Positions 28,066 to 54,398 of a stretch of 56,465 nt of DNA are shown here, piece after piece. The translations under genes and the position numbers were made by a program. The first letter of the stretch is position 1; every line of letters begins with the position of its first letter. Location: positions 1 to 56,465 of IMG/VR virus record IMGVR_UViG_3300032093_012241; one strand, 5' to 3'. The notes under the pieces were generated by a model. It was not told where the DNA came from. It searched no databases and was given only the letters and a program-made list of their open reading frames with translations. The DNA comes from a virus.

Positions 28066-28608
28066 ATGAAAACATTATTAAACACAATTACTCAGGACGA
28101 GAAAAAAAGAATTTTAGAAATGCATAAAAATGCGACTAAAAGGAATTATTTGCAGGAACAAGGTGATGTTACCAATCCTACCACATCTACAACTAATTCA
28201 CAAACACCACAACCTAATATATTAAGTTTAAAAACAGATAAAAAACTTTACAATAAGTTTATAACTTTAGATGAAAATGATCAAAATAAAATAAGAGAAT
28301 TTTTTACGAATCCCACAGGATCTGATTGGAAAAGTGTGGCGCCATTTCCACTTATTGGTATAGTTCAAGAAACTTTGATTAAATATGCAAATGCTGGCGC
28401 GACACCTAAACAAATTCCGTTTTTGGAAGTTGCAAATAAAACAGAGAGATCTAAATCATATTGGATTGATCCAAAAACAAATCAAAAAAGTAAAGATTCA
28501 AACTATAATGTAATATTTTCACAAAATTCACCATACAAACTCGTACAAATAGCGAATAAGGCCTTTGATAAATTTTTCAATTATAAATTAACAAAAACAT
28601 TTACTTAA
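28066..28608 (+). CDS. Hypothetical protein with ITQDEKKRILEMH start peptide, 180 aa
   Basis: A 180-residue plus-strand protein. It opens with MKTLLNTITQDEKKRILEMH, followed within 20 residues by YLQEQG. I recall this opening, including the ATxxxYLxEQ part, from virion-like proteins of related phages. A Thr/Ser/Pro linker (TNPTTSTTNSQTPQP) then leads to a folded domain with NPTGSDWKSVAPFPLIGIVQ. The opening peptide may direct it into the virion; that is inference. It ends at a terminator shared with the converging secreted-protein gene. Confidence 0.6.
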   Translation: MKTLLNTITQDEKKRILEMHKNATKRNYLQEQGDVTNPTTSTTNSQTPQPNILSLKTDKKLYNKFITLDENDQNKIREFFTNPTGSDWKSVAPFPLIGIVQETLIKYANAGATPKQIPFLEVANKTERSKSYWIDPKTNQKSKDSNYNVIFSQNSPYKLVQIANKAFDKFFNYKLTKTFT

Positions 28609-29092
28609 ACTTAAAAATAGTAAAAAGATTATAAAAAAGGGACGATAGTCCCTTTTTTTGTTTTACCACTTCCACTTTATTAGTGAAAAATCCAACCATT
28701 TTATTATTTTCAGGTTCTGTTTTTATAACAATTAATCCCATATCACCAAATATGTTTAATTTAAAGTAATATTGGTAAATTCCTTTATTTGTGATATCCA
28801 CCTGAACCACTAAACCATCTGAGTTTTCAGTATAATTCAGAACATCATAGATTTCTTCAACACCATCGTAATTTACGTAACTGAAAATTCCATTGGTTTT
28901 ATCAACAGTATATAAAGTGTTAGCTTTATATTTTAGAGAGTCGTATTCTATAAGCGAGGAATCTATTGATTCTTCTAATGTCTTGCCTACCGGATATCTA
29001 AAATATTTCATGTCGGTCATTCTATAATTAACAGTTTGACTAATCAATACTGACACGAAAAAAACAAATATAACAGTTAGGAGAGTTTTCAT
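28601..29092 (-). CDS. Secreted protein, paralogue A
   Basis: A 163-residue protein with a signal peptide (MKTLLTVIFVFFVSVLISQ) and a compact beta-rich body. It resembles 29127-29570 in length, signal, and the ending GFFTNKVEVV versus GYFTNDVKVN. Here 18 more residues (KKGLSSLFYNLFTIFKFK) follow, read through the terminator hairpin at 28633-28658. It is preceded by a Bacteroidota-type promoter with a leader almost identical to that of its paralogue. Export to the host envelope is inferred. The function of either copy is unknown. Confidence 0.65.
   Translation of the reverse strand: MKTLLTVIFVFFVSVLISQTVNYRMTDMKYFRYPVGKTLEESIDSSLIEYDSLKYKANTLYTVDKTNGIFSYVNYDGVEEIYDVLNYTENSDGLVVQVDITNKGIYQYYFKLNIFGDMGLIVIKTEPENNKMVGFFTNKVEVVKQKKGLSSLFYNLFTIFKFK
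28633..28658. terminator. Strong bidirectional terminator lying inside the secreted-protein gene
   Basis: Stem AAAAAAGGGAC (28633-28643) and GTCCCTTTTTT (28648-28658) with a 4-base loop GATA. It would end the plus-strand gene 28066-28608 and, because both flanks give T runs, also the minus-strand transcript, 30 bases before the minus-strand stop codon. Confidence 0.88.
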
Positions 29093-29113
29093 AGTTTTTA
29101 AAGGTTTATACTA

Positions 29114-29121
29114 CAAATATA
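29114..29121 (-). promoter_or_regulatory. -7 element and shared leader of secreted paralogue A
   Basis: Minus-strand TATATTTG, followed by TAGTATAAACCTTTAA and, 21 bases from the element, the ATG at 29092. The leader is nearly identical to that of the other paralogue. Confidence 0.55.
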
Positions 29122-29126
29122 CAAAA

Positions 29127-29570
29127 TTATTGATTCACTTTAACGTCATTTGTGAAGTAACCGACAACATATCCATCTTTTGTTTTGTGACGACTTCTAA
29201 CAATCATGGACATTTTATCATTAATGTTTTCAGCAATTAAAAAATTAAAAAACACTCCTTGTTCTGTCAAAATATCGCAATCTATTTGATCATATTGTGT
29301 ATTATAAGCAATAATTTTGTTTCTAACTCTATGCCCATTTGGATAAGTGATAAACATTACGTTGTTATCAAAATTGAAACTAATCTTGGTATTACAGTTA
29401 AGTTCAGTCTTACCAAATACAATTAAATTACTGTCTCGAGCATCTCCCATCGTAGATAAAGATGGATATTTGAAATTAGTTGAATCTGTCATTGTAAGAT
29501 TCAAAGTTTTAATTTGTGCGTTAGAGATAAAAGATACAAGAATAAACAAAAAAGAAAAAATGGTTTTCAT
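29127..29570 (-). CDS. Secreted protein, paralogue B
   Basis: A 147-residue protein with signal peptide MKTIFSFLFILVSFISNAQ, ending in NAQ as in many Bacteroidota exported proteins. The body has MTDSTNFKYPSLSTMGDARD, a strand-rich middle and the ending VVGYFTNDVKVNQ. The same order and ending are in paralogue A. Its promoter (29599-29627) has TTTG, 17 bases, then TATCTTTG. It is separated from A by 34 bases and has its own promoter. Exported phage proteins like this can alter the host surface, for example to block other phages, but nothing here shows that directly. Confidence 0.68.
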   Translation of the reverse strand: MKTIFSFLFILVSFISNAQIKTLNLTMTDSTNFKYPSLSTMGDARDSNLIVFGKTELNCNTKISFNFDNNVMFITYPNGHRVRNKIIAYNTQYDQIDCDILTEQGVFFNFLIAENINDKMSMIVRSRHKTKDGYVVGYFTNDVKVNQ

Positions 29571-29598
29571 GATTAAAAGGTGTTAAAGGTTTATACTA

Positions 29599-29627
29599 CA
29601 AAGATACAAAAATTATTTGATTTCAAA
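29599..29627 (-). promoter_or_regulatory. Bacteroidota-type promoter of secreted paralogue B
   Basis: Minus strand: TTTG (29627-29624), 17 bases, TATCTTTG (29606-29599), then TAGTATAAACCTTTAA. It overlaps the last codons of the primase gene. The ATG at 29570 is 28 bases from the -7 element. Confidence 0.6.
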
Positions 29628-30512
29628 GAAAAAGTTATCAATTTTTCCCTGTAAATCACAAACGTCTTGATTATCAGGTAATTTAATTATTTTTATTTTT
29701 CCAAACAATCTACCCCCATTTAATTCGTGAAATAGTTTGATACCATTTTTCCAAGCATCTCCATCCAAAGCTATGATTATGTTACCATTCGCTTTTTGAT
29801 ATAAGGTATCAAAAAGTAGTTGTGACATAGTTTTTCCAAGCATTGGTATTGAATTTGGTAGAAATACCGCATCAAATGCTCCCTCACATATATAAATATC
29901 TTTATCCCAATCAATTAAACTTTCATTAAATATTATTTTATCTTTTTCTGCTTGTGGATTTTTATACTTTGATCTTGTAGTTTTATTCCAAGATCTTGCA
30001 ATAAAATAATTTGCATTACCTTGACTATCAAAGGAGGGTATTATTATTCTTCCAATAAAATCCCCTTTATCACAAAAACCTATCTTATATTTTTTTATAA
30101 TATCATTTGTGATATTTCTTTCTTTAAGATATTTTATAGCTTGTTTATAGACAGGATATATGGGGTTTGAATCTTCAAACAATGTATAACCTTCAGGTAA
30201 TCTGAATTTTGGTTTTTTTATTTCTTGTTTTTTTTCTTCTTCGGGTTTAAAAAGTGTATAAATTTTCTTTTGTTTTTTGGTTCCGAATTCATCTATTAGC
30301 TTTCCTAAAGGTCCGTGAGTTCCGTTTGAATCGGAGCAAGCCCAGCACTTATATACGTGTTTTAATACATTTACCTCTAGGTTACCTTTGTTTTGCCCTT
30401 GATCACAATATGGACAGTTAAAGGAATATTGACCTTTGGATTCATAATGAAGTTTTTCTTTACCCAAAAAACTTCTTACAATATCAACAACTATGTCTTG
30501 TTCGTCTTGCAT
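29613..30512 (-). CDS. DnaG-type DNA primase, short phage form
   Basis: I take ATG 30512 (MQDEQDIVVD) because a TATCTTTG element ends 5 bases upstream; an upstream in-frame start at 30548 would add 12 residues that match no family. The 299-residue protein has a zinc-binding module with CPYC at 33-36 and CWAC at 56-59, then a linker, then a TOPRIM-like fold with IYICEGAFDAVFL and later NIIIALDGDAWKNG. These hold the acidic metal residues that make the RNA primer. Bacterial DnaG is about 600 residues; here the helicase-binding end is missing, as in many phage primases. It would prime lagging-strand synthesis of the phage genome. Confidence 0.88.
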   Translation of the reverse strand: MQDEQDIVVDIVRSFLGKEKLHYESKGQYSFNCPYCDQGQNKGNLEVNVLKHVYKCWACSDSNGTHGPLGKLIDEFGTKKQKKIYTLFKPEEEKKQEIKKPKFRLPEGYTLFEDSNPIYPVYKQAIKYLKERNITNDIIKKYKIGFCDKGDFIGRIIIPSFDSQGNANYFIARSWNKTTRSKYKNPQAEKDKIIFNESLIDWDKDIYICEGAFDAVFLPNSIPMLGKTMSQLLFDTLYQKANGNIIIALDGDAWKNGIKLFHELNGGRLFGKIKIIKLPDNQDVCDLQGKIDNFFFEIK

Positions 30513-30517
30513 CTTAA

Positions 30518-30525
30518 CAAAGATA
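30518..30525 (-). promoter_or_regulatory. -7 element for the primase gene, leaderless layout
   Basis: Minus-strand TATCTTTG ending 5 bases before the ATG at 30512, so the transcript would begin at or next to the start codon. Confidence 0.4.
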
Positions 30526-30574
30526 ATACAAAAATTAAAACCAATCAATATTCACAACTTTCCATAAAATTCTA

Positions 30575-30596: not shown

Positions 30597-30833
30597 ATGC
30601 CAACAAATATTGTTATTAGTGGTGTTACTGGTCTTTCTCCTTATAATGTTTATGTTTGTGACACATCTACAGTTAATTGTACGTGGATCACACAATTCAC
30701 ATCTTCGCAAATTCCATATACATTCGAATTACCATACATTTATTCCTTTTTACCTGATTTTGCAGTAAAGGTAATTGATAATAACGGATGTTTTGTGGTA
30801 AAATTAAGCGGCACAACTTACCCTGAATGTTAA
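30597..30833 (+). CDS. Small Cys-containing tail-module protein, 78 aa
   Basis: A 78-residue protein that aligns by eye to the first 80 residues of 36145-36885: VVISGVTG-like start (NIVISGVTGLSPYNVYVCD) versus IILSSITGYTPPYEIYVCD, then an NC pair, an F-E-LP stretch, VKVIDNNGCF and a final Cys. So it is a free-standing copy of a module present in the tail-fibre region on the other strand. The cysteines may pair or bind metal. With 30845-31477 it forms a short plus-strand pair ahead of the minus-strand fibre genes. Function is inferred to be a tail tip or adhesin part. Confidence 0.6.
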   Translation: MPTNIVISGVTGLSPYNVYVCDTSTVNCTWITQFTSSQIPYTFELPYIYSFLPDFAVKVIDNNGCFVVKLSGTTYPEC

Positions 30834-30844
30834 AATAAAAAAAT

Positions 30845-31477
30845 ATGGATTATTGTCTTTCAACTTACTACGGAATTTACTCTCAATACGATGGAAATTA
30901 TTATTCTGCCGGAACATATGACGGTAATTCATATTATACGGGAGATAGTGTAACTACAGCTTACATATATTATAACACAGGTCAAACAAGATGGTGTTTA
31001 TCAACATCTTTAGGGGGTAGCTGTATTTTATTCGGAGGAAATAGATGTCAAAGTTTGTCACCAAATTTATCTGAAGAATTTTTTAATTCTGGCCTATGTT
31101 TGACTCCGACTCCAACACCCACAATAAATTGTAGTGTGCTTGATTTTGATGCGTTTTTTGATTGTGATATTGTACCTCCAACACCTTCGGTAACTCAAAC
31201 AATGACACCGTCTCCCACATCAGGTTACACATACCCAACTAATACGCCAACGATGACAAATACGCCAACACCTTCTGGCGATATTTGCGGTAATGTAAAT
31301 TTTTGTTTTGTAGTTCAAAATGTTTCTCCAACACCAACACCTACACCTACTATGACCCCTTCTAGCGCGGCCGCTAGAAATACACCGGCTGACGGTGTTG
31401 TTACATTTACAACAATTGATTCAAACTTTATTTGCCCTCCTCAAGTTGGATCTTCATCGACTCAAATACTACCGTAA
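30845..31477 (+). CDS. Tail-tip-like protein with Thr-Pro linkers, 210 aa
   Basis: A 210-residue protein. The N-terminal 80 residues are Tyr/Gly/Cys-rich (YYSAGTYDGNSYYTGD; RWCLSTSLGGSCILFGGNRC). Three Thr-Pro linkers follow (TPTPTPT, TPSVTQTMTPSP, TPTPTPTMTPS) separated by short Cys-containing domains. The same TP-linker type occurs in 34424-36106, so the two are probably related structural adhesins. Near residue 175 the sequence becomes Ala-rich at an unusually GC-rich 40-base patch (31360-31398). No enzyme motif is seen. A surface-exposed fibre protein is likely. Confidence 0.6.
   Translation: MDYCLSTYYGIYSQYDGNYYSAGTYDGNSYYTGDSVTTAYIYYNTGQTRWCLSTSLGGSCILFGGNRCQSLSPNLSEEFFNSGLCLTPTPTPTINCSVLDFDAFFDCDIVPPTPSVTQTMTPSPTSGYTYPTNTPTMTNTPTPSGDICGNVNFCFVVQNVSPTPTPTPTMTPSSAAARNTPADGVVTFTTIDSNFICPPQVGSSSTQILP
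31360..31398. repeat. Two GC-rich inverted repeats inside an AT-rich gene
   Basis: First: TTCTAGCG (31360-31367), CGGC, CGCTAGAA (31372-31379), containing the 8-base palindrome GCGGCCGC. Second: ACACCG (31382-31387), GCTGA, CGGTGT (31393-31398). They lie in frame within 30845-31477 with no T run, so a terminator is unlikely. Confidence 0.6.
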
Positions 31478-31479
31478 AT

Positions 31480-32085
31480 CTATTTCCAAAGATTTTCTTG
31501 TTTCATATACCCCAAACAACAAGTATATGCATCTGACATATCAAAATTTTCTTTTTTAAGTGTTTGATTTTTGGTATATAACCATTTAATCTGAGGTTCT
31601 TTTTGAGCCACCAAATTCCAAATTATCATTTTTTTATCAACATCTCTTGGTAACCCCCCAAATAATACAAATTTTTTCTTATCATTTTCTTTTACAAGAT
31701 CAGGAAATGCAAATTTTCTTGAATTATATGTTGAAATATATTCGGGAACAATTCCTAATGTATTATAAATTTCTTTTGATATAAGGGTATTAAACCTCAG
31801 AAGTGTTTGTATGGTATAAACATTATTTGAATTGAGAAGTGGTTCTTCTATAATAACTTTTGTAATACCTAAATTTTTATAGTCATCTAACTTTTGTCTA
31901 AAAATTTCAGATTTTAAAAAAAGTTCCTTGATTTTATTATCCTCTTTTGGTTTTGGTACTGGTGAGATATGAGTTAATTCTAATAATTCTCCACTGATCA
32001 TGTCAAAAAGCGCCCATCCGATTGTTCGTGTTGATACGTCTAAACCCAAAACTTTTGGGTTATTTTTAATTTGTTTCTTTACCAT
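31480..32085 (-). CDS. RuvC-like Holliday junction resolvase
   Basis: A 201-residue RNase H-fold protein. The first acidic motif is LGLDVSTRTIGWALF with D16; the second is KVIIEEPLL; the last is FDMSDAYTCCLGYM, with the acidic pair that completes the metal site. This matches the RuvC/phage RuvC-like group. By family it cuts four-way DNA junctions during recombination or before packaging. Its stop lies 3 bases from the converging plus-strand gene 30845-31477. Confidence 0.78.
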   Translation of the reverse strand: MVKKQIKNNPKVLGLDVSTRTIGWALFDMISGELLELTHISPVPKPKEDNKIKELFLKSEIFRQKLDDYKNLGITKVIIEEPLLNSNNVYTIQTLLRFNTLISKEIYNTLGIVPEYISTYNSRKFAFPDLVKENDKKKFVLFGGLPRDVDKKMIIWNLVAQKEPQIKWLYTKNQTLKKENFDMSDAYTCCLGYMKQENLWK

Positions 32086-32131
32086 ATATTAACTATGGTA
32101 ATATAAACTATTTAATAGTCAATAATTTATA

Positions 32132-34396
32132 TTAAAAGTCGAATTTGACAAGGAATTGCTGTAGACTTTGTCTTTTAATTGGTGACTGCAATTTTGATAT
32201 CGCCATAAGATTTTTTTTGTCATCCAAAAGTGCAATTTCTGTTATATAAGAATCTGTTCCTGATGTCCAAGTCGGATTTGATGTAAATGTAAATTCGTTT
32301 TGACTTAAATTACAAAGATATCTCATTTCATAAATTGAAGCTTGTATTTCTGTCTCTAAATTACCATAAAAATAATACTCATCTCCGAAGTTTAATGTAA
32401 GACCGGTTTGACCAACTTGTGGTAATAAAATGTTATCGTTTAAATTATATGTTGTAGCAGCATTATAAAGTGCATCGGTAATAACAAAAGTTGTACCTGT
32501 TAATCCTTGTATTGTTAAAGTTCCTCCTGATATTTGGTTTGTAACATTAATTTTTCTCCATAAAGTCGGATCTGGTCTTCCTGTTCCGTTAACCCTTTGA
32601 CATAAAATTTCAATTGAAGAATAGTATGAAGATATATCAGGAATACATCCAAATTCATTTCCAAACGTTACAGTTACGTTTTGTGAGGTTGAGTTACAAC
32701 TTTCATTTGGACCTTGTATTATCTGATAATAATTATTATGTAATGAATTGGTAAACCCAACATTACTATTTAATCTATATGTCACGTGCATATATTGAGT
32801 ATTACCCGTTAAAACACCTTGCTGCGACCCATCAGGAGTTAATAACGCAACTCTTGGGGCCGGCATTGTCCAATTGCGATTTGACTTATATGACATCGCA
32901 GCGATTATCTCTTCATCATCAATAACAATTGTATGTAAATCAGGAAATACTTTACCTATTCTATTTGGATAACCATCAACATTCGGATTTGTATCCCATA
33001 AATGATAATACCTATGTCCAGGATGATTCATATCATTATTTAAATTTGATGTTAGATAATGCTCCTCAAATAAGTTCAAACCATCAAAACCTGCAGGATC
33101 AACATAAAAAGTTTGTCCGCTACAACATCCATAATCTGACTTATGCCACTGAATTGTTGGTAAGTGTAATCTGAAATTTCTTGCCATACCAACAGTATTG
33201 GTTACATTATCAGGATCAAAAGGTTGTAATGCAAATTTTTCACCATAAACAAAATCTATTGTGTTATTTGTGTAATGTATTATAGCAATTGCTTTTTGTT
33301 CTTTTCCCGTTACAGTAATTTTATCTCCTAAAGAATTGTAATAATATACCGAATCGCTATCCGTCTGTCCTGTGCTATTACTATAACCGAAATATTCTTT
33401 ACTACCAAGATAATTTACAGATCCAAATGTTGTATAATCTTTATAAACTGAACCATTAAGTCCTGCGGGAGATTCACTCCAAGGAATATTCATATTCCAT
33501 ATATTAACATTAAACATGTCAATATCGCAAACTGATTGAAAATTTAAAACATCTTGGTTCCAGTGCGGCTCGGGAGTTTGACTGTCATAAATTACTGTCA
33601 TTCCTGATGGATAAATTAATGCTCTAGCGTCACCAATAATACCAAGTGTTAAAAAATTCGGTAAATACCTATCCAAAGTTAATGTTAAACCCGTAAAAGA
33701 CACAATACGGTATGTTAATATAGGGTAACAACTTTGGATCGATAAAAAACAGGATCTATCTGTTGGCGGTAATGGTGGGCATGGATCAAAAGTTGAATAT
33801 GGTGAGGTGCAAGTTCCTGATGTTGGCGTATAATCACAATTACAAATAGAAGAATTTGTTTGATCAAAATATAGTGTAATAAAATCTCCCGCAGAGAAGG
33901 ACATTGTGGTTGCTGTGTTACAAACAGATGATATTAAAGTTATTTGGTTATTCGCGTTCCCTAACAAATTCATATCAACGTAATAATTCGCAGTTTTTAC
34001 ATATTCAGATCCTGTTCTAGCACTCCAAGATGTTGGTATCGTTGATGTATCGGCACTAAAAAATCCTCTCATAGGAGCAACATTATATATATTACTAACA
34101 ATAGAATCCATAAAAGGAATACCATATGTGCTTCCTGCACTTCCATCAACATAATATGGATATTTTACATTTTGAAAATTTGATGCCGGCGCTGCCGCGC
34201 TATTTTGTGAATTAAACGCCGGTTCTAATACCATACCATTTGGGTGGTAAAAATTTGGTATCGCATTGTAAGAAACCTCGCTATCTCCAATTTGGAAATA
34301 ACTTATATTAAAATTACCCTGAGACATTTTTTCTCGTCCCGCATCTGTAATTCTTGTATTAATTAACGCCGATGTATTTTTTAATATGTAAGCCAT
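32132..34396 (-). CDS. Tail fibre or baseplate-attached protein, 754 aa
   Basis: A 754-residue protein starting MAYILKNTSALINTRITDAG then EKMSQGNFNISYFQIGDSEV, an opening I know from fibre-type proteins at the end of baseplate operons. The body is strand-rich with many Tyr, Asn, Gly and Thr, and a Cys-rich segment near 193-228 (SICNCDYTPTSGTCTSPYS). The C-terminus reads LMAISKLQSPIKRQSLQQFL. It lies last but one in the minus-strand tail run. A host-facing virion protein is the likely role. The exact attachment cannot be read from sequence. Confidence 0.65.
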   Translation of the reverse strand: MAYILKNTSALINTRITDAGREKMSQGNFNISYFQIGDSEVSYNAIPNFYHPNGMVLEPAFNSQNSAAAPASNFQNVKYPYYVDGSAGSTYGIPFMDSIVSNIYNVAPMRGFFSADTSTIPTSWSARTGSEYVKTANYYVDMNLLGNANNQITLISSVCNTATTMSFSAGDFITLYFDQTNSSICNCDYTPTSGTCTSPYSTFDPCPPLPPTDRSCFLSIQSCYPILTYRIVSFTGLTLTLDRYLPNFLTLGIIGDARALIYPSGMTVIYDSQTPEPHWNQDVLNFQSVCDIDMFNVNIWNMNIPWSESPAGLNGSVYKDYTTFGSVNYLGSKEYFGYSNSTGQTDSDSVYYYNSLGDKITVTGKEQKAIAIIHYTNNTIDFVYGEKFALQPFDPDNVTNTVGMARNFRLHLPTIQWHKSDYGCCSGQTFYVDPAGFDGLNLFEEHYLTSNLNNDMNHPGHRYYHLWDTNPNVDGYPNRIGKVFPDLHTIVIDDEEIIAAMSYKSNRNWTMPAPRVALLTPDGSQQGVLTGNTQYMHVTYRLNSNVGFTNSLHNNYYQIIQGPNESCNSTSQNVTVTFGNEFGCIPDISSYYSSIEILCQRVNGTGRPDPTLWRKINVTNQISGGTLTIQGLTGTTFVITDALYNAATTYNLNDNILLPQVGQTGLTLNFGDEYYFYGNLETEIQASIYEMRYLCNLSQNEFTFTSNPTWTSGTDSYITEIALLDDKKNLMAISKLQSPIKRQSLQQFLVKFDF

Positions 34397-34423
34397 TTAT
34401 ATCTAAATATCTTAAAATTGGTT

Positions 34424-36106
34424 TTATGGGGTAAAAACTTGACTGTTAAATGTTGTTGTCATTTGTGTTGATTGAGGAAGTCCTGTAACATTACAGCACG
34501 AACACCCTGATTTACTTGAACTCACGATCTGTACTTTATCTAATGAAACCACATAACATGGAATTCCAGGATGCGTTTGTCTATTAACTTGAACTATTAT
34601 TGACCCTGTTATAACGTCATTGCCTGATATTGTGATAGGTTGATAATTAGTTGTGGTTGCTGTAGTATATTCTAATACCCCTGGACCACAACTTAAAGCG
34701 GGTACAGGTGATGGTGTGAATGTTGAAACAGTATTTATTAAAGTTAATGGGGAACCATTTTTCAAAATTAAAGTGGTAGTAGTTCTTGATCCCTTTGTTG
34801 GGCTATTCGTTACTTTAAAGTCATTAACATGCGCTAAATTGAATGTTATTTGTGTTCCTGCAGGTAAAGTTGTTACTGGTTGTGACTGTGAATTCAATAC
34901 TTGTATTGTGAAATCCAGTCTTTGTACTTCAGAATTAGGTGTAGCAGATATCTGCGTAATATTTGATGTAATAGCAAGTGTATATATCGTTTGGGTAGGA
35001 GCTGGAGGTATAGTTACGGTTTGGGTAAGTGTAGTCAGTGTTGAGTCTTGTACCCAAATATTATAAGACCCACTAACTAAATTATTAAAAATTGGTGAAG
35101 TTTGTGTTGATGTCCCATTATTAATTGAATATAAAACGGGTTGTATGGCATTTATAGTATTTATCGTAATTGACCCTGAGTTTGGTTGCGCACTACAAAG
35201 TGGGGCTGATATAGTAGGATTTGATAGTGTCATAGTCGGGGCAACACAAGGGCCATTTGTAACTGTATATTGAGCCCCTGCATTATAACCCACAACAGTA
35301 TATGTTCCTAACGGTGATAAAGGATTTAGGTTATATATAAAATTACCAGCAAAAGTATTAAAATTAATTTGCCAAGATGGTTGTGGTGTAAGTGACCATT
35401 GTAATGTAAACGTATCTGAAGACCACGTAAATTTACCGTTAACAATGTTTTGAGTAGGATATAAAGGGTATTGGGTTGTAGTTTGAGTAGAAGGACCGCC
35501 TCCAATCTGACCCACAGATTCAATTGATGTCAAACATAATGTTTGTGTATTGACTGGAATAGGAGTCGGAGTTGGTGTTAAAGTAGGTGTTGGCGTAGGA
35601 GTTAATGGTGGTAATGAACATATAGTAGTTGCTGTAAAATCAGGGCCGCTATTTGGCCAATCAAAATCTGTAACAGTTATCGTATAATTTTGACCACGAA
35701 CCGCATTGGATAAAGTAGAGCCCAAATAACCGTTTGACCAAGAAATTTTATAAGGGGGGGTTCCCCCCGATACATTAATTGTAATACTTGAGTTATTTAT
35801 GTTGGGATTACAACTTATTTCCAAAGGTAATATTGTAACAATATCACATTCATTTGTTGCTGTTACTCTAATACAAGGATAGGTTTGATTACAATTCGAG
35901 CAATCTGAATACATTGTTAGTGTCGCTTGTGATGAAGAATATATCGCCGAATTAGGTAAAAGTTCAAAATTTTCGATTATTTCAGTACACCCTGAAAAAG
36001 AGTTTGGTATCTGTACATAAAAATAATCTCCAATAGGAAGTGACATAAAATTTACGATTGTAAATGTTATATTAGGATCACAACATGATTTAAAATATAC
36101 TTGCAT
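34424..36106 (-). CDS. Modular adhesin-like tail protein with TP linker and homopolymer tract, 560 aa
   Basis: A 560-residue protein of separable modules. Residues 1-85 are a Cys module (SCCDPNITF ... CSNCNQTYPC) that matches the second half of 36145-36885. Next is a SprB-like unit with SGGTPPYKISWSNGYLGS; its DNA holds a G7/C6 tract at 35754-35768. A TPTPTPTLTPTPTPIP linker follows, then a strand-rich segment, then a second block (TLAITSNITQISATPNSEVQ) and a Cys-rich end (SSSKSGCSCCNVTGLPQSTQ). The order suggests an elongated surface protein. Function as a host-binding tail protein is inferred from these modules. Confidence 0.65.
   Translation of the reverse strand: MQVYFKSCCDPNITFTIVNFMSLPIGDYFYVQIPNSFSGCTEIIENFELLPNSAIYSSSQATLTMYSDCSNCNQTYPCIRVTATNECDIVTILPLEISCNPNINNSSITINVSGGTPPYKISWSNGYLGSTLSNAVRGQNYTITVTDFDWPNSGPDFTATTICSLPPLTPTPTPTLTPTPTPIPVNTQTLCLTSIESVGQIGGGPSTQTTTQYPLYPTQNIVNGKFTWSSDTFTLQWSLTPQPSWQINFNTFAGNFIYNLNPLSPLGTYTVVGYNAGAQYTVTNGPCVAPTMTLSNPTISAPLCSAQPNSGSITINTINAIQPVLYSINNGTSTQTSPIFNNLVSGSYNIWVQDSTLTTLTQTVTIPPAPTQTIYTLAITSNITQISATPNSEVQRLDFTIQVLNSQSQPVTTLPAGTQITFNLAHVNDFKVTNSPTKGSRTTTTLILKNGSPLTLINTVSTFTPSPVPALSCGPGVLEYTTATTTNYQPITISGNDVITGSIIVQVNRQTHPGIPCYVVSLDKVQIVSSSKSGCSCCNVTGLPQSTQMTTTFNSQVFTP
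35754..35768. repeat. G7-TT-C6 homopolymer tract in a tail adhesin gene
   Basis: Plus strand GGGGGGG (35754-35760), TT, CCCCCC (35763-35768). On the coding strand it encodes Ser-Gly-Gly-Thr-Pro-Pro in a SprB-like unit. Such tracts are rare in this AT-rich DNA, and they can slip in replication or form a tight hairpin. Confidence 0.75.
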
Positions 36107-36144
36107 TAAATATTTTTATTTATAAGTATTTTATTTTTTATTAT

Positions 36145-36885
36145 TTAACAAGAATTAATTTCTGTACAATCAGAACAAGTTTTCATTTCAGGAAACGGAT
36201 ATAATAATGATAAGTTCGTATTTGTTGTAAAATCCCAATCTGACTGATGATATGTTTGATCAGGAGTTTGAAAATTACTAATTACCACTGTACATCCCGT
36301 ATATCCTGTACCTGTTCCTATACCTGATGGGGGTATATTCACATACCAAGAAACATTAGGTTGAAAATATGTCGATTGAAATAATTGATCAAAAGTGAAT
36401 GTATAGTTACTACAACAAGCACTAAAATATGTTGGAGCAACTATATCAAAACATTCTTGACAATTACCAAAATCTTCAATTATTGTTATATCTTCAGAAG
36501 TTTGATTTGTAAATTGATACCCCGAATACTGCCAACATTTATTGTAACCTAAAAGGATAACTGATTTCCCAATCTCAAGATCTACTTCATTTTCTGTATA
36601 GATACAATTTGAAAAATCGCTACAATCGCAAAATGTATGAAGTACGTTGCCAAAATAAGAACATATAACATTTTCCTCTTTTTCACATCCTGAGTTAATA
36701 CCAACTATTTTTACATTAACTGCAGGTGCTCCGCTAAAAAAATCAGGTAACGGAAAAACATCAATAGGAGGTACTGTATTTGTAATTGTCTTTACAAATT
36801 GACAGTTGTTACCTAAAAAGTCACAAACATATATTTCATAAGGTGGCGTATATCCTGTTATTGATGATAAAATTATATTTTTCAT
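36145..36885 (-). CDS. Two-module Cys-rich tail protein, 246 aa
   Basis: I take ATG 36885 (MKNIILSSIT), which overlaps the SprB-like gene's stop by ATGA; a TTG at 36894 is also in frame. Residues 1-80 form module A (IILSSITGYTPPYEIYVCDF ... VKIVGINSGC) shared with 30597-30833. Residues 155-246 form module B (FSACCSNYTFTFDQLF ... YTGCTVVISNF ... TCSDCTEINSC) shared with the start of 34424-36106. A middle segment has CDCSDFSNCIYTENEVDLEI. Cysteine count is high for a phage tail protein. The protein joins both shared modules, so it may be the ancestral or central copy. Role inferred as tail-tip or adhesin. Confidence 0.65.
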   Translation of the reverse strand: MKNIILSSITGYTPPYEIYVCDFLGNNCQFVKTITNTVPPIDVFPLPDFFSGAPAVNVKIVGINSGCEKEENVICSYFGNVLHTFCDCSDFSNCIYTENEVDLEIGKSVILLGYNKCWQYSGYQFTNQTSEDITIIEDFGNCQECFDIVAPTYFSACCSNYTFTFDQLFQSTYFQPNVSWYVNIPPSGIGTGTGYTGCTVVISNFQTPDQTYHQSDWDFTTNTNLSLLYPFPEMKTCSDCTEINSC

Positions 36886-39113
36886 GGCGGACAACTAACA
36901 CAATTTATATCATATACTATTTTTAACTGAGTTGTTACATTTTGATTTGCTAAACCATAATCAACCTCATCACAATCTGTATTGAGTGTAATTGTATTAT
37001 TTTGGTCATCAACTATAACGTCGCCAATTCCTGTTGTACCGCTTAATAATGCTGTTATAGTATTTGTCCAAGCTGAAAGATTAGGATAACTACTTAACGT
37101 TGTTGCTGTAAAAAAAGATTGACTGTAACCTGTTCCAGCAACATTTGTAACTGCTGAAAATATAGCACTTGTCAATAAACAATCTGTACATCCTGATGTT
37201 AAGTCTAAATATCCTTCAATTAACATTTTTTCCATTGTTCTTTCAGTTAAATTACCTGTTGATGAAATAACTGAGTCACATATATTAAAAAGCACTGTAT
37301 CACTTTGATTGTATGTTCCACCTAAAGTAATTAATCTTTCAGTTATACATCCCGCTGCATCTTGTACAATTAAAGAATAGGTTCCCGCCGATAAATTTTG
37401 TACAGTAGTTCCCGTTTGTCCATTTACGTTAGGTGACCACGTTAATGTAAAAGGCGGAGTACCATTTACTATATTTGCAAATATTTGGCCATTTGATCCG
37501 TTTGTTGAATTGGTAGGATAAAGGTAAAAATCAACCGATGGACTTTGGTTTACAGTAAAGTATATGTTTTGTTCACACAATGCCTGGTCTTCAACAGTAC
37601 CTATATAGGACCCTGCCGCTAAATTATTAAACGTATATGAAGAGGTTCCTGTATTTGTAGCAACTTGATTATTATTCCCATTAATATCTATGATAGAAAA
37701 TGTATATAGTCCTGTCTGACCTGTTGAAGCGGTTATTAAAACTGAACCATTATTTTCATTACAAGACGTGCCAGTAACCGAATAACTTACTGTGAATGGA
37801 GATTGTGATGTTAAGGTATATAGTCTAGAGAAAGTACATACACCATCACTTATTGTTAATAAATAATTATTAGGGGGTAATCCTGTAAAGATATTACTAG
37901 TAGTTGAGATATTCTCTGTCGTTATTGTAGAAGATGATAATGTATATGTATAAGACTTACTTTGATCTCCTATTAGGCTAATTGAAATTTGTCCGTTTGA
38001 ATTACCACATTTAGGATTTGTTATATTAACTGATCCTATTGAAAAACTATTTGGTTGATTAAGTTGTACCGTTGTTGTGTCTTGACACAATGCCGAATCA
38101 GTAACTATTATTTCGTAATTTCCACCTGGTAATCCTGAAAAAGTATATGTTTGTGAATAAGATATATCAATAAAAGACCTTGAGGGTATATAATATCTAT
38201 AAGGAGGTGTTCCGTTACTTACAATTATCGTGATTTGACCGTTTTCATCAAAACAAGTTGGTGGGGTCGGTTCGACCACATTTATCACAACAGGCGGTAT
38301 TTCGTCAATTGACGCCGACTGTGTTAACTCACACCCTTGTGAGTCGGTTACTGTTACACTATAAAGTCCAGATGTAAGACCTGTAATAGACGTACCGCTA
38401 GTTATTTGTCCTGTACCGATTAAATAATTTGAATTAACTTGAGTCCACTGATATGTATAAGGTGCTACACCTGTAAGACCTGTAATATATATTTTTCCAA
38501 CACCTGACGCAACATTACCACAATCTGCATCATTAACAACATAAAGACCATAATTAATAGATGTTGAACTTAAAACAATAGCAGTTTCACTATTTCCAGT
38601 ACATCCACCACCATTATCGGTATTTACATAATAAATACCAGGTTCTAAATTGTTAAAAACATAAAATGTGGTATTAGTAAATGCGGTTTCTATTGGTATT
38701 CCATCTTTATATAAAACTATAGTTGCTGTATTATTAATATTCTGAGTAGTGGCCGTTAATATTCCATTATTTAATCCGCAAGTTGTAGAAACAACCCCAT
38801 CAATATTGACACATGAACTACCTGAAGATACTGTTATATTTATAGTTTCTCTATTGTTCTCAGGAGAACAACTATCATTTATCTCAAAAACATAAGTCCC
38901 TGCTAATAAGTTAGAATATGTTATAGACCCATTAAGAATATTTGGTTCTACTGGTGGACCACCACCTAAATTAGGAGACCAAGGATTTGGTTCGTACCAA
39001 GTAATACTCATAGGTTCTGCTGAAGTTTCTAAAAAAAGCGTAAAACCTCCAGAACCGTTATTCTCACAGTCACCTGTTACTGTAAATTGTGTAAAATTAT
39101 ATATACAAGCCAT
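36882..39113 (-). CDS. SprB-like repeat adhesin in the tail operon, 743 aa
   Basis: A 743-residue protein built of repeated units of about 70-90 residues. Typical pieces are GVAPYTYQWTQVNSNY, GLTSGLYSVTVTDSQGC, NGTPPYRYYIPSRS, GGNYEIIVTDSALC, NGTPPFTLTWSPNVNGQTG and LSAGTYSLIVQDAAGC. They match the SprB repeat of Bacteroidota gliding adhesins (N-G-x-P-P-Y ... G-x-Y-x-v-x-v-x-D-x-x-x-C). The C-terminal 140 residues are a separate domain with CTDCLLTSAIF. SprB repeats are a host-surface feature; a phage that carries them may have taken host adhesin modules for its fibre. The start MACIYNFTQFTVTGD lies 5 bases after the stop of 39119-42121. Confidence 0.75.
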   Translation of the reverse strand: MACIYNFTQFTVTGDCENNGSGGFTLFLETSAEPMSITWYEPNPWSPNLGGGPPVEPNILNGSITYSNLLAGTYVFEINDSCSPENNRETINITVSSGSSCVNIDGVVSTTCGLNNGILTATTQNINNTATIVLYKDGIPIETAFTNTTFYVFNNLEPGIYYVNTDNGGGCTGNSETAIVLSSTSINYGLYVVNDADCGNVASGVGKIYITGLTGVAPYTYQWTQVNSNYLIGTGQITSGTSITGLTSGLYSVTVTDSQGCELTQSASIDEIPPVVINVVEPTPPTCFDENGQITIIVSNGTPPYRYYIPSRSFIDISYSQTYTFSGLPGGNYEIIVTDSALCQDTTTVQLNQPNSFSIGSVNITNPKCGNSNGQISISLIGDQSKSYTYTLSSSTITTENISTTSNIFTGLPPNNYLLTISDGVCTFSRLYTLTSQSPFTVSYSVTGTSCNENNGSVLITASTGQTGLYTFSIIDINGNNNQVATNTGTSSYTFNNLAAGSYIGTVEDQALCEQNIYFTVNQSPSVDFYLYPTNSTNGSNGQIFANIVNGTPPFTLTWSPNVNGQTGTTVQNLSAGTYSLIVQDAAGCITERLITLGGTYNQSDTVLFNICDSVISSTGNLTERTMEKMLIEGYLDLTSGCTDCLLTSAIFSAVTNVAGTGYSQSFFTATTLSSYPNLSAWTNTITALLSGTTGIGDVIVDDQNNTITLNTDCDEVDYGLANQNVTTQLKIVYDINCVSCPP

Positions 39114-39118
39114 TTATT

Positions 39119-42100
39119 TTAATCTAAAATACCAGCATTTACCGAAATGCAACTTAATGTGAAATTAATACCAACGTTTATTTTAAACTCTGAATTTAAA
39201 TTTAATCCATCACAAGTAACAGTAAATATAGTTACTTCATTTTCAGATACTATATAATCTAAACCATAATTTATTAATGTATCTAACTGAGTTTGAAGTG
39301 CTGTTAACCACTGAATTTGAGTTGGGAAACTTATTCCTTCTAAAGACAATCCGGCCCCATCAAAGAATTTATAATTAATAATTGTTGATCCGCCCAAACT
39401 TATATTTACATACCATTGAGTAACTAAAGTATTAGGGTTACAATTTGGATTTTGTATAGAATTACTAACAACTTGACTTAATATTCCGCCAAAATTACTA
39501 CCCAAAGATGGGTTAGAAATCCAAGGATATAAATCACATGTTGTAGAAGCTTCAGTACAATCATTTAAAATAATAGGACCTGTTAATGTACAAGGAACGC
39601 AAGGAACAGGTATTAATTGACAACCACGCTGCCTTCTCCAAACAAACTTTTGTCTATGAAATATAGAATTTTCAAATCTAACACCTGTATTCCAAATTGT
39701 AGTTGCTGGAACCATTTGCTCAACCAATCTAATCCAATAATCTCCCAGCCCTTGTACATAATCTATCATTTTTTGATAAGTTACAACAGCATCTGGCAAT
39801 CCTGATATGGTGTTTGATTGGAGATATTTCCAAAAAATAGATGATAGACTAGGATATCCCCCTGTTTTTCCATCTGTAATAAACTGTCTATCTCTAACGT
39901 TTATCATATTTTGCCAGAAGGTCTGCGCAAACTCAAAGAAAGTTTTATCCGAAGGATTTGGATCAAAAAGTGTTTTATCTAAAATCGTTGGATTAAGGTA
40001 AGTTGGGCAGTAACAATTTCCTCCTACCGTATATCCTGTTGATGGTATTGGATAATTAAAGTTTGATGACAAATACCAAACCTCGTAGGCAAATACTTGG
40101 CCTGGATTTAAATACAAATCAACATTTTTTACATTTAATATAAGTTTTTCATTATCAACAAAATAAAAAGAATTATTTCCATCAGAATTTCTTCTTAATC
40201 CCGTTTGATTATCAACCCAACTTTTTTTATTATCCTGAGTTTTTGTAAGCGAAAACCCTAAATCCGTATATGGAAAATCTCTAAACCTATCTAAATATTT
40301 TTGACCATAAGTGAATCCTTCCAAATATGTTTGATAATTCGGATTTTGGCCTGTAAATGAACTTGTTGTTGGATTAAAAAGTTCGTTCGCCCTATGTTGT
40401 GGCGTTTGTTCAAACCAACCAGCTCCCATTTGAAAAAAGAAATCGTCAGTATCTTCAGGGGCTTTTGGATAACCTTGGTCGTCAACAGGAAAATCGTCTC
40501 TTCCTAAACTTACATCCTCAGTTATTGTTTGAATTGTAAAACCTGTAAATTGCCTTCCAAATATTTTAAAAGTATTTCCTGGTTCTAAAACGGGCAATTC
40601 TGTTGCAAATGTTCCACCTGAGATAAAAGAAAATTCATCATTAAATTGATTCATATTAATTCTTTGATCTGCGATGTAGATATGTTCATTAAAATCCACT
40701 AACGCATCAGGCGCCCCAATTAATCTTAGCAGGTTTTGAATTGATGATCTTGTCCCTTTTGATTTGAAAAGATATGCCGAATTTAAAATTAAATTTCTAT
40801 AATATTGGTAACTTAACTCATCAGGTGTTGATGAAATTGGTTGACCAGGAAATTGGCTCGGTGTGTTATTATTAAACAAAGTATCCAAAAGACCTTCATT
40901 TGTGATCGGAGATATATTTTGTGTCCAACCTAATGTTTGAGATAAGTTTTTTAATAACTGAGAAGGTATATCATTTTTAACCGTATAATTTACAGAATTC
41001 ATATAGGCCAATGCTTCAATAAATTTTTTAACTTGGTCAAAACTTCTTCCGTATATTTCAAGTAACTTCGTAATTTTTTGATCATCTGTATCAAAATCTT
41101 TAAAAGCACCTGTTGTCAAAAATCTTACAATAAGCCTTGTTCTAAATTCATCAAAACTAGCAGAGATATCATTTAATTTTGTTAGGTAACTTGTAAACCT
41201 TGATGTTATAATATCTAAATTCCAATTACCAAAGAAAGGCCATGTTACATAATCTTTTGTTATATATGCAGTTCCATCATCAGCTTCTCTTACTACGGTA
41301 AATTCTGCGGTATATTGTGGATTTGTTTTTCTATTTAATAAAAACTTTTCTACCTCGTCAAAATCTTGAGTAAATATAGTTTCAGTTGTAACCGGATTTG
41401 GTCTGATAACCAAATAATCATTTGTTGATGACAAGCCAGAAAATGGATTTCCTTTAACAGTAATTCTTAAAATACCATTTGTCAAACTTGTAGTTGGTGT
41501 GATAAACACCAAAGGATAATTTTGATCATTAAGATATAAACTATATTTGGATAAATTTGTCACCATATCCCTAATTGGTGACACTTCTATTTCTGATAAT
41601 TTTAAATTTCTTGCAGCATTTATTGTAAAATCAATATTAAATGGGTTTTGAATATTTGCGGCGTCTAGTTCAAAGTAAGTTTCGTTATTTTGAGAGTTAT
41701 ATACAATATTTGTAGCGGTTGATGCGGTTGTATAATTCGCACCATAAAAAGAAACTTCTAATGCCGCAGGAAAATAATTAATTATCTTAGTTATTGAAAC
41801 TGACATTCGTTTAACTAATGAACCGTACTGCGAAAAAGTGGTTACATTACTTAAATCAAAATTAGGATAGACCTTGAAATTTTTCTCTACGATTGCTTTT
41901 GATTCCTCAACTGATTTTATACCTAAAGTATCTAATGTTATAGGATCTGAAAATGTACCAATAATAAATTCCCTATTTGACTTTTCGCTTACAGAAGTTG
42001 TAAATTCGAAATTACCTTGAGTCAAACCTCCTCCATTAACAACTTGAAAACCTACCAAATTGTCTGAAAATGTGTTATCCGCAGTTGCTTGTTGTGGAGG

Positions 42101-42121
42101 ACAGGTATATTTTTTAGCCAT
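39119..42121 (-). CDS. Large baseplate-associated protein, 1000 aa
   Basis: A 1000-residue protein. The middle region (IYGRSFDQVKKFIEALAYMN; LSQTLGWTQNISPITNEGLL; QYYRNLILNSAYLFKSKGTR; IQNLLRLIGAPDALVDFNEH) resembles the tail protein I/P2-type baseplate component that connects wedge to fibres; this match is from memory. The C-terminus is Cys-rich (CQLIPVPCVPCTLTGPII; CTEASTTCDLYPW). It shares one base with the next gene's stop (TAATG). It may form the fibre-attachment end of the baseplate. Confidence 0.62.
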   Translation of the reverse strand: MAKKYTCPPQQATADNTFSDNLVGFQVVNGGGLTQGNFEFTTSVSEKSNREFIIGTFSDPITLDTLGIKSVEESKAIVEKNFKVYPNFDLSNVTTFSQYGSLVKRMSVSITKIINYFPAALEVSFYGANYTTASTATNIVYNSQNNETYFELDAANIQNPFNIDFTINAARNLKLSEIEVSPIRDMVTNLSKYSLYLNDQNYPLVFITPTTSLTNGILRITVKGNPFSGLSSTNDYLVIRPNPVTTETIFTQDFDEVEKFLLNRKTNPQYTAEFTVVREADDGTAYITKDYVTWPFFGNWNLDIITSRFTSYLTKLNDISASFDEFRTRLIVRFLTTGAFKDFDTDDQKITKLLEIYGRSFDQVKKFIEALAYMNSVNYTVKNDIPSQLLKNLSQTLGWTQNISPITNEGLLDTLFNNNTPSQFPGQPISSTPDELSYQYYRNLILNSAYLFKSKGTRSSIQNLLRLIGAPDALVDFNEHIYIADQRINMNQFNDEFSFISGGTFATELPVLEPGNTFKIFGRQFTGFTIQTITEDVSLGRDDFPVDDQGYPKAPEDTDDFFFQMGAGWFEQTPQHRANELFNPTTSSFTGQNPNYQTYLEGFTYGQKYLDRFRDFPYTDLGFSLTKTQDNKKSWVDNQTGLRRNSDGNNSFYFVDNEKLILNVKNVDLYLNPGQVFAYEVWYLSSNFNYPIPSTGYTVGGNCYCPTYLNPTILDKTLFDPNPSDKTFFEFAQTFWQNMINVRDRQFITDGKTGGYPSLSSIFWKYLQSNTISGLPDAVVTYQKMIDYVQGLGDYWIRLVEQMVPATTIWNTGVRFENSIFHRQKFVWRRQRGCQLIPVPCVPCTLTGPIILNDCTEASTTCDLYPWISNPSLGSNFGGILSQVVSNSIQNPNCNPNTLVTQWYVNISLGGSTIINYKFFDGAGLSLEGISFPTQIQWLTALQTQLDTLINYGLDYIVSENEVTIFTVTCDGLNLNSEFKINVGINFTLSCISVNAGILD

Positions 42122-52099: not shown

Positions 52100-53938
52100 T
52101 TAACCGAAATTGACCGTTTTAAGGTTTTTAACCCTAACTGAAACGTCTTTATTTGGAAATCTAACTTGATATATTTGAACCGGCTCTGCAAATATCGTAT
52201 CATCGATTAGTTGAATTTGTCTTGTTTGAGTATCGGAATATCTTTGAGAAGTTTGAGAAGACGAATATTGACCTCCAATCAAATTAAAAACATCCACTTG
52301 TGCAATTGAAATCACTCCATTTAAGTTTTGAATATTTTTCTTAATCTCTGCGACATAAACATTTTCACCCATCTCTCTATTTGATGGTGAAAAATAATTT
52401 GAAACAATATCAACAATCTGTGTTATTATTGTACCTTGATTCTGACTTGAATCTAAAACTACATATATATCAAATTTCAAATCTACAACTTGAGCGCTTT
52501 CTACAACAACATAATCATTTATCATTCTATAATTTGATAGGTAATTTGCGAGATTTGTTTTAAGTGTATTTGATATAAAATTTGTTAACTTTCCTGACGA
52601 ATCATAAGATAAACATTGTATTCTAATTTTATTATCTTGTTCTGTAATTGCTACTTTTGCCGGAGCTCCAAATTGTGATGGCATATTTCTGATTATTGAT
52701 TCGTAATCATTTACTGTTACAGCTCTTTTTTGCGCAGCAAAATTAAATGAAACATAATTTCTAACTTCCTCTACCGATGGTACATTTGCTCCTCCAATAG
52801 CGGCGGTTGTATTCGTACAACTTAATGAATTAATAACAGAAGTATTTTGAGTTTGTGAAGGGCCATTAACTGCAAAATTTATAGTTCCTAATTGAGTTAT
52901 GACATTAACACCAACATTTGATGAAATACCTCCACCTATTCTATATTGAACAAATAAAGTTGAATTGGCCTTTAAAGTACTACCTAAGGCAAAATTATTT
53001 GAATATTTTTGTAAATTAAGTGGATTTCCTGTTGAAGCAAATTCTCTTAACTGCTCTTCAGAAGATTGATTTCCTCCTCCGAATGTCATTTTGAAAAAAC
53101 TTTCAGGGGTAAATTCTGTTATAAACTTATTGTTTGTTGATATGTATTTCCCCACCTTTATACCAGGTTGATCTGAAACTTTTGTAGGGTCTTCAACAAA
53201 TACCTTATCTTGTATTAAAGCATCAACTTCATACCATCTATTTGCTCTTCCTAAGAATTCTTGATCTGATGGTATATTTGCATATTGCGTTCCGTCTTTT
53301 AATAAAACACTAGTTACTCCTAATACATTTTTTTCAGGTAAAAATATTTCAAAAAATGGAAAAACATCATTTGGTAAAATAGTTCTTTTAAATACCTTTG
53401 TTATTCCATTAACCACAGTTTCTCTTTTTGTTATAGTATAATTTAATATTTTACCATTCGGATCAAAGTTTGGAACTTTTGTTCTATTTGGAAACCCTTC
53501 GTTATTGAACGGTGATGAAAAATCAATATCATAAACAGTTTCAAAAACTTGCCCTGCACCAACACATTGCGATCCTCTCCTTAATATACCACAATATCTA
53601 ATATCTTCTTTATCACCAAATGCCGGAACAATAATTGAAAAATCAACCAATGCCACTGATGGTCTTTGACCTGGTATTTTTAACCCGTATGTTCTTGCTA
53701 TGTTATAGATAGACGATCTTTGCTGAGCATATTGTAGAACGGTCTCTTGAATACTTCTGTCTATTTGAAATTGTAGGTTATCTGAAATGGCGGCATTTAA
53801 ATCAAGTAACACAGAGAAAACTGAAGCGTCATTAACATTGGATAGTAAATCAGGATAATATGTTTTGACAAAATTTATTAATTCGGTCCTAATTGATTGG
53901 AAATCTCTTGTTGTGTATGATATTTTTTTATTTGCCAT
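52100..53938 (-). CDS. Baseplate wedge protein, gp6/J-like
   Basis: A 612-residue protein. Its N-terminus ISYTTRDFQSIRTELINFVK and the following FSVLLDLNAAISDNLQFQID and QQRSSIYNIARTYGLKIPGQ match the start of T4 gp6-type baseplate wedge proteins and the broader baseplate J family. The C-terminal part has the typical core with VEEVRNYVSFNFAAQKRAVT followed by VNDYESIIRNMPSQ. It follows the gp25-like gene by 4 bases, the same order as in many contractile tails. Role: joins wedges to form the baseplate ring. Confidence 0.85.
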   Translation of the reverse strand: MANKKISYTTRDFQSIRTELINFVKTYYPDLLSNVNDASVFSVLLDLNAAISDNLQFQIDRSIQETVLQYAQQRSSIYNIARTYGLKIPGQRPSVALVDFSIIVPAFGDKEDIRYCGILRRGSQCVGAGQVFETVYDIDFSSPFNNEGFPNRTKVPNFDPNGKILNYTITKRETVVNGITKVFKRTILPNDVFPFFEIFLPEKNVLGVTSVLLKDGTQYANIPSDQEFLGRANRWYEVDALIQDKVFVEDPTKVSDQPGIKVGKYISTNNKFITEFTPESFFKMTFGGGNQSSEEQLREFASTGNPLNLQKYSNNFALGSTLKANSTLFVQYRIGGGISSNVGVNVITQLGTINFAVNGPSQTQNTSVINSLSCTNTTAAIGGANVPSVEEVRNYVSFNFAAQKRAVTVNDYESIIRNMPSQFGAPAKVAITEQDNKIRIQCLSYDSSGKLTNFISNTLKTNLANYLSNYRMINDYVVVESAQVVDLKFDIYVVLDSSQNQGTIITQIVDIVSNYFSPSNREMGENVYVAEIKKNIQNLNGVISIAQVDVFNLIGGQYSSSQTSQRYSDTQTRQIQLIDDTIFAEPVQIYQVRFPNKDVSVRVKNLKTVNFG

Positions 53939-53942
53939 ACTA

Positions 53943-54398
53943 TTAAATATTAATTATTATGAAATTACTTGATTGAAATACATTTGTGGTTATTACATAA
54001 TCTAGTTTAACTCTTGCAGTGTGTTCTTTTGTTCCTGCACCTGGTAATCTATATACCCTATCGTCACCACTTGCAACCCTTATTTCTTCGGTTTCTTCTG
54101 TTGAAGCGTCGTATACAGTTATTGAGGTTACTTTTAAATTTGGTATATATCTTTTTATTGATTCCCTGATTTCAGCTTCTATTTCTGAAAAACTTGTCCC
54201 ATCCATAGGTTCAAAAATGTATTCCAACAATCTTGTACCAAAATCAGGTAAAAAATATCTTGTTCCTTTTCTTGTTAATAATAGATGAATAAGGTCTGTC
54301 CTTATCTCTTCGTCAATTGTGTCAGATAAATCTAAATATCTTCCGTCAAATGAATCTCTAAAAGGAAAATTAATTCCATATGTTACCGGATTTGCCAT
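53943..54398 (-). CDS. Baseplate wedge protein, gp25/W-like
   Basis: A 151-residue protein of the gp25/GPW family. Seen are FRDSFDGRYLDLSDTIDEEI, LLLTRKGTRYFLPDFGTRLL, IFEPMDGTSFSEIEAEIRES and RYIPNLKVTSITVYDA. The family fold recalls lysozyme but is structural; no enzyme activity is implied. It pairs with the gp6-like protein. A TATTTATA element lies 4 bases before the ATG. Confidence 0.9.
   Translation of the reverse strand: MANPVTYGINFPFRDSFDGRYLDLSDTIDEEIRTDLIHLLLTRKGTRYFLPDFGTRLLEYIFEPMDGTSFSEIEAEIRESIKRYIPNLKVTSITVYDASTEETEEIRVASGDDRVYRLPGAGTKEHTARVKLDYVITTNVFQSSNFIIINI

Follow-up and report, generated by a model that had tools for sequence, protein, structure and literature searches.

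We analysed a 56,465-nucleotide stretch of viral DNA (IMG/VR record IMGVR_UViG_3300032093_012241; hereafter the window), a 56-kb myophage fragment in which a locus between baseplate genes and primase probably encodes, judging from its sequence, the host-contact fibres of a large myophage. Genes for gp25-like and gp6-like baseplate wedge proteins lie at 52100-54398, and a run of genes leads from there down to g1000; g743, the fibre locus, a RuvC-like gene and the primase gene follow in that order. All of the interval is on the minus strand apart from A78 and TP210, a plus-strand pair situated between the RuvC-like gene and primase (Table 1). A preliminary description of this DNA, whose coordinates and strands were all right, had noted two cysteine-rich modules (A and B) shared among genes of the locus, and had proposed that the locus was built by duplication, domain exchange and inversion.

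Table 1. Genes and features of the fibre locus and its flanks (window coordinates)
Feature	Coordinates	Strand	Basis and remarks
DnaG-like primase	29613..30548	-	Pfam DNAG_N over cut-off; fixed right-hand flank of the locus
A78, stand-alone module A	30597..30833	+	Residues 4-65 correspond to 30606-30791
TP210, cysteine-containing core domain followed by TP linkers	30845..31477	+	Sequence
RuvC-like gene, one end of the orientation-changing block	31480..32085	-	PHROG 159, E 2.7e-6
g754, probable structural (tail/fibre) protein	32132..34396	-	Always adjoins the RuvC-like gene
g560	34424..36106	-	N-terminal module B (residues 4-82, about 35861-36097), SprB repeat, TP linker
g249	36145..36885	-	N-terminal module A (about 36685-36879), C-terminal module B (about 36148-36435)
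g743, SprB-repeat/Hoc-like, left-hand flank gene of the rearranging interval	36882..39113	-	Pfam, PHROG
g1000, conserved baseplate-side gene	39119..42121	-	145 relatives in viral contigs; relatives were found and oriented with it
Block g249-g560-g754-RuvC	31480..36885	-	In C2-type relatives the whole block is inverted with respect to g1000 and primase

BLASTP and HHalign agree that module A is common to A78 and the N-terminus of g249. Residues 4-65 of A78 aligned with residues about 3-67 of g249 at 38% identity over 65 amino acids (BLASTP E 4.5e-8, the set searched being a small one of window proteins), and separately built profiles scored 97.9% in HHalign (E 4.4e-13, 61 columns). Module B is common to the C-terminus of g249 (residues ~151-246) and the N-terminus of g560, a resemblance that is weak pairwise (E 0.024) and clear by profile (96.8%, E 2.3e-10, 76 columns); the module B profile scored 0.1-13% against six other stretches of g560. 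The two B copies are adjacent on the same strand, so that g249 ends with one and g560 begins with the next. TP linkers were present in both g560 and TP210, as described. Protein-level comparison therefore bore out the proposed resemblance for both modules, which is significant in profile-profile comparison. At the DNA level it was reduced, for module A, to a single 24-nucleotide stretch at 83% identity; the copies are nearly unrecognisable as DNA, and the duplications are therefore old. DNA repeats within the window, considered as a footprint of recent duplication, were at chance level and were rejected. These alignments indicate that the module homology is real, and that it is old protein homology rather than a recent DNA repeat.

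No useful family match to module A or to the core of the TP gene was found in Pfam, PHROGs or PDB sequences. The TP-gene core carries the pattern IYYNTG..WCLS.SLGGSC and forms a conserved domain of ~107 positions in these phages. SprB repeats, which the preliminary description did not include, are found in g743 (Pfam PF13573, 1.6e-15, five stretches) and in g560, in both cases above the curated cut-off; the repeat is the known one, but here it lies within phage structural genes. g743 also gave a PHROG Hoc-like match (1.3e-7). We did not favour the idea that module A is a plain SprB domain, as independent profiles scored a weak and out-of-register 34-81% and PF13573 matched none of 30 module A members. 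An iterated module A hidden Markov model matched the SprB region of g743 strongly, a match that may partly reflect profile drift.

Relatives of the locus were collected in two scans of viral contigs, giving 80 loci around g1000 and 80 around the RuvC-like gene. The largest of their contigs reach 261-322 kb, and the group thus includes jumbo phages. In 49 non-redundant relative groups, on contigs of up to 322 kb and with g1000 taken as forward, the RuvC-like gene points in the same direction as g1000 in 22 groups, in the opposite direction in 24, and could not be placed relative to it in three. Where both genes can be seen, primase has the direction of g1000, the one exception being group L141. 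Full gene maps of 35 intervals fall into five layouts. The window and seven relatives have layout C1, g743> A> g560> g754> RuvC> <TP <A78 primase>, which also occurs in five more distant relatives carrying extra fibre genes. Layout C2 is g743> <RuvC <g754 <g560 <A <TP <A78 primase>, and C3 is g743> g560> g754> RuvC> <A <TP <A78 primase>. The left part of C4 is like that of C3, with primase also turned and A78 forward behind it, and in C5 all of these genes are forward. Three units recur through the layouts, namely g1000-g743, g560-g754-RuvC and A78-TP. Rearrangement borders fall at gene ends and, in C1, convergent genes at the borders are often only a few nucleotides apart, outside the TP arrays.

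The layouts cannot readily be traced to one event. A concatenated tree of g1000, the RuvC-like gene, primase and the N-terminus of g754 needs at least four orientation changes and at least seven layout changes, and the single-gene trees need 4-6 orientation changes each; all were quick trees. A single origin of the flipped C2 layout was rejected by the approximately unbiased (AU) test on the concatenated data (p 3e-7) and on the single genes (p 2e-7, 1.5e-4, 3e-13 and 0.018). The borders also differ: A lies within the turned block when C1 is compared with C2 and outside it in C3, and C4 takes in primase as well, so that a single kind of rearrangement cannot account for them either way. The window's closest kin share its layout. 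In the nearest contig, L002 (99.98% identity to the window over 17.7 kb), the layout is identical as far as the contig reaches. The 99.98% identical contig (L001/L002) stops 3 nucleotides past the stop codon of g560. This gene border is within the rearranging interval, and the contig end may mark a variable site at which the assembly broke.

The modules themselves have been reused and shuffled among these relatives. Of the loci in the g1000 set that extend far enough, almost all have an A gene after g743, L018 and L019 being exceptions. Module B was found in four contexts: at the end of g249, at the start of or inside g560 relatives, in some g743 relatives (as an N-terminal extension in L071 and L078) and in some TP-gene relatives. 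Module A is in some cases fused to a TP-rich protein (L026, L032 and L065). L176 and L179 are sister phages (78-86% identical in DNA) whose TP genes differ by a single clean module of 845 bp, and the window carries the short form. The fusions, the contexts of module B and the 845-bp difference show directly that domains have been gained, lost and exchanged. In the distant relatives L203, L205, L051 (L085) and L034, an A gene is followed by a TP-rich protein with up to about 80 TP units and then by very large fibre-like proteins, almost cysteine-free and up to 3343 amino acids long, all on a single strand.

In a tree of 75 A modules, all 31 copies lying immediately upstream of a TP gene fell within one clade of 37 (support 98), whatever the layout; the remainder of the tree consists of g249-type copies, found on one strand or the other. 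With 74 columns behind it, the tree is unsure in its finer branching. The A78 and g249 types are thus, on this tree, two ancient paralogues. As the TP-upstream copies form one clade, their duplication happened before these lineages parted, and it was a later, separate event that left the two copies on opposite strands in the window. The rearrangement that placed them so is now fixed in the window's clade. Across relatives, then, duplication, domain exchange and inversion were all supported as processes that built the locus, but the strand difference between the A modules did not come from duplication.

Cassettes appear also to have been swapped horizontally. Contigs L199 (C3) and L196 (C2) come from related phages. 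On the baseplate side, away from g1000, 10 kb of the two match at 86.5%; identity is 93% at the A end, 94% across A78 and primase, and 97% and 89% past primase, before it falls to 76-78%. From the g1000-adjacent baseplate genes through g754 and the RuvC-like gene they are only 65-76% identical, with the block inverted, and their TP genes are 70-74% identical. The simplest reading of these identities would be that a different host-recognition cassette entered one of the two. Both phages, L199 and L196, turn up in four separate assemblies apiece, which counts against misassembly. Contigs of different layouts coexist in several metagenomes (for example 3300042691, 3300034062 and 3300032116), giving opportunity for exchange.

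We consider it probable that the locus combines old reuse of modules, a block found in both orientations between lineages, and diverged cassettes swapped between similar flanks. Several points weigh against this account. Some orientation changes may be recombination imports of one older inversion, leaving the number of separate inversions uncertain; the root and the ancestral layout are not settled; and the contigs of many relatives end within the locus. In the outgroup sequences LR756508 and Immutovirus the interval is on one strand, which suggests, with the root in doubt, an all-forward ancestor.

A known precedent for a tail-fibre block in two orientations exists in phages Mu and P1, with their invertible segments (Gin in Mu, Cin in P1), and the block described here might likewise be flipping within a population, as an active phase-variable inversion that alternates host range. 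Both orientations do occur among relatives, and in some lineages opposite-strand TP arrays share exact inverted matches of up to 24 nucleotides. Yet serine recombinases (PF00239) were found in none of 18 contigs of up to 322 kb (the window and some others being fragments) in searches that did detect their positive controls, nor were tyrosine recombinases or integrases, or reverse transcriptases (PF00078); the last result led us to reject a diversity-generating retroelement. The gene at 31480-32085 was considered as a Piv/IS110-type DEDD invertase and rejected, as its product of 201 amino acids showed no Transposase_20 in a Pfam scan and only sub-threshold RuvX. Flanking crossover repeats were not found in the window, where exact inverted matches in the interval were no longer than 13-14 nucleotides, the same as in shuffles. 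Near-identical contigs, 45 in all and forming 14 clusters, showed no inverted segment within any cluster, and no inverted alignments at or above 80% identity were seen among the loci. The arrangement is not static across relatives as a whole, but it is static in the nearest relatives and within every near-identical cluster, which points to evolutionary history and not to a current switch. Unlike the situation in Mu and P1, change is seen between lineages, and we regard an active switch as highly unlikely; slow recurrent rearrangement with domain shuffling, not phase variation, is what the comparisons indicate. A more speculative route, which we also think improbable, is recombinase-independent flipping, in which short inverted homologies such as those of opposite-strand TP arrays recombine and the RuvC-like resolvase at the block end resolves the junctions. 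Arrays with 24 nucleotides of exact match are a possible recombination substrate; the borders nevertheless lie at gene ends.

The relatives are all metagenome contigs and their TP linkers are repetitive, so the layouts could be imagined as misassemblies. Each main layout, however, recurs with identical gene order in independent assemblies (L168-L171, L143-L146 and L132-L135 come from different metagenomes), and the position of the borders described above, away from the TP arrays, is not that expected of such an artefact; we give misassembly almost no weight. Equally remote is the idea that modules A and B are alike only through a composition rich in cysteine, proline and threonine, without common ancestry. 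The pairwise value for module B is not significant, but the profile-profile alignments with clean controls, together with a motif order for A and B that is conserved across many relatives, speak for descent. A reversed insertion of the A78-TP pair between the RuvC-like gene and primase, by transposition or cassette import, deserves more consideration, as under it the rest of the block need never have been inverted in the window's lineage. All-forward relatives and LR756508 have the RuvC-like gene close to primase with no A78-TP between them, and such an insertion could therefore yield the window's layout. It leaves C2 unexplained, where g754 and the RuvC-like gene are themselves turned and parted from primase, and both accounts can hold on different branches; as a replacement for block inversion we consider it unlikely.

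The RuvC-like gene combines a family match with acidic catalytic residues (D16, E80/E81, D182 and D185) conserved in 35 relatives, as in RuvC-like Holliday junction resolvases; its match to Pfam RuvX is below the cut-off. Most simply, it would be a recombination gene that once lay near primase, as in LR756508, and was carried along with the block. The N-terminal profile of g754 matched an Immutovirus protein (E 1.6e-5) encoded just before annotated tail fibre and tail spike genes. Median conservation is 44% for g560, the lowest in the locus, 71% for g1000 and 88% for the RuvC-like protein. The position beside the baseplate, the SprB repeats, the TP linkers and the low conservation of g560 would fit fibre or adhesin proteins under diversifying pressure. 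The host-range role put forward in the preliminary description is a plausible possibility.

T4-like phages have modular, mosaic tail-fibre loci, and the locus resembles them in having a fast-evolving receptor-binding part that adjoins baseplate genes and exchanges domains and cassettes; it differs in the recurrent turning of a block that carries the RuvC-like gene too. No annotated phage with g249, g1000 or the RuvC-like gene was found, and a search with g743 gave one match, at 28%, in a 642-kb uncultured phage. Among cultured phages the nearest relative found is the Flavobacterium phage Immutovirus immuto (NC_055915), which is linked by its baseplate and primase only. Its baseplate wedge, fibre genes and primase are in the same order, with 25% identity for the gp6-like protein and 29% for primase, but all of its fibre region lies on one strand, and modules A and B and the RuvC-like gene were not found there by profile search. 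The published group that comes closest by its description is the moraphages (Perez-Hernandez et al. 2025, PMC12619734). These are aquatic jumbo phages, mostly from fresh water, whose hosts are predicted to be Bacteroidota, and the authors state that the group has undergone several inversions as well as other rearrangements. Common to both are large genomes, baseplate wedges of the gp6 and gp25 kinds, a primase and predicted Bacteroidota hosts; gp6, gp25, primase and a size above 200 kb (from the relatives' contigs, the window itself being 56 kb) were all found here, and these traits are not specific to moraphages. Capsid, terminase and polymerase B, the markers of the moraphage clade, were not identified in the window. 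This locus, its modules and its orientation changes are not analysed in the available text of that paper. The phages described here probably infect Bacteroidota.

Several other features of the window were recorded. Two adjacent short minus-strand genes at 28601-29092 and 29127-29570 have similar starts and are preceded by the same 39-nucleotide stretch (29088-29126 and 29573-29611, respectively; 87% identical), perhaps a shared promoter; one homologue in L090 matches both. A plus-strand gene at 28066-28608, which starts MKTLLNTITQDEKKRILEMHKNATKRNYL, has homologues in L090 and L098 and was not seen at the corresponding place in several other relatives. Adjacent to the baseplate genes, a minus-strand gene at 54418-55044 with a PHROG match annotated as ferredoxin (E 1.8e-36) lies beside a gene for a ribonucleotide reductase large subunit (55058-56413, minus strand).

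The proteins of the locus are strings of small, mostly cysteine-containing modules (A, B, the TP-gene core and SprB) joined by TP linkers. Under the reading that we favour, of old module reuse, block inversion between lineages and cassette exchange, rare illegitimate or short-homology recombination would produce the orientation changes, and cassette exchange would spread them further. The rearrangements may be tolerated in that the three recurring units remain whole, and the benefit would lie in new combinations of receptor-binding modules. If recombinase-independent flipping were true, it would be a route by which a block keeps flipping over evolutionary time with its transcription units whole. 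Tail-fibre mosaicism is well known; recurrent orientation change of the same block, with no invertase found, is not described for this group in the searchable literature. The locus offers a concrete, mapped case for asking how large environmental phages recombine their receptor-binding modules. It also singles out candidate receptor-binding proteins for phages that lack close cultured relatives.

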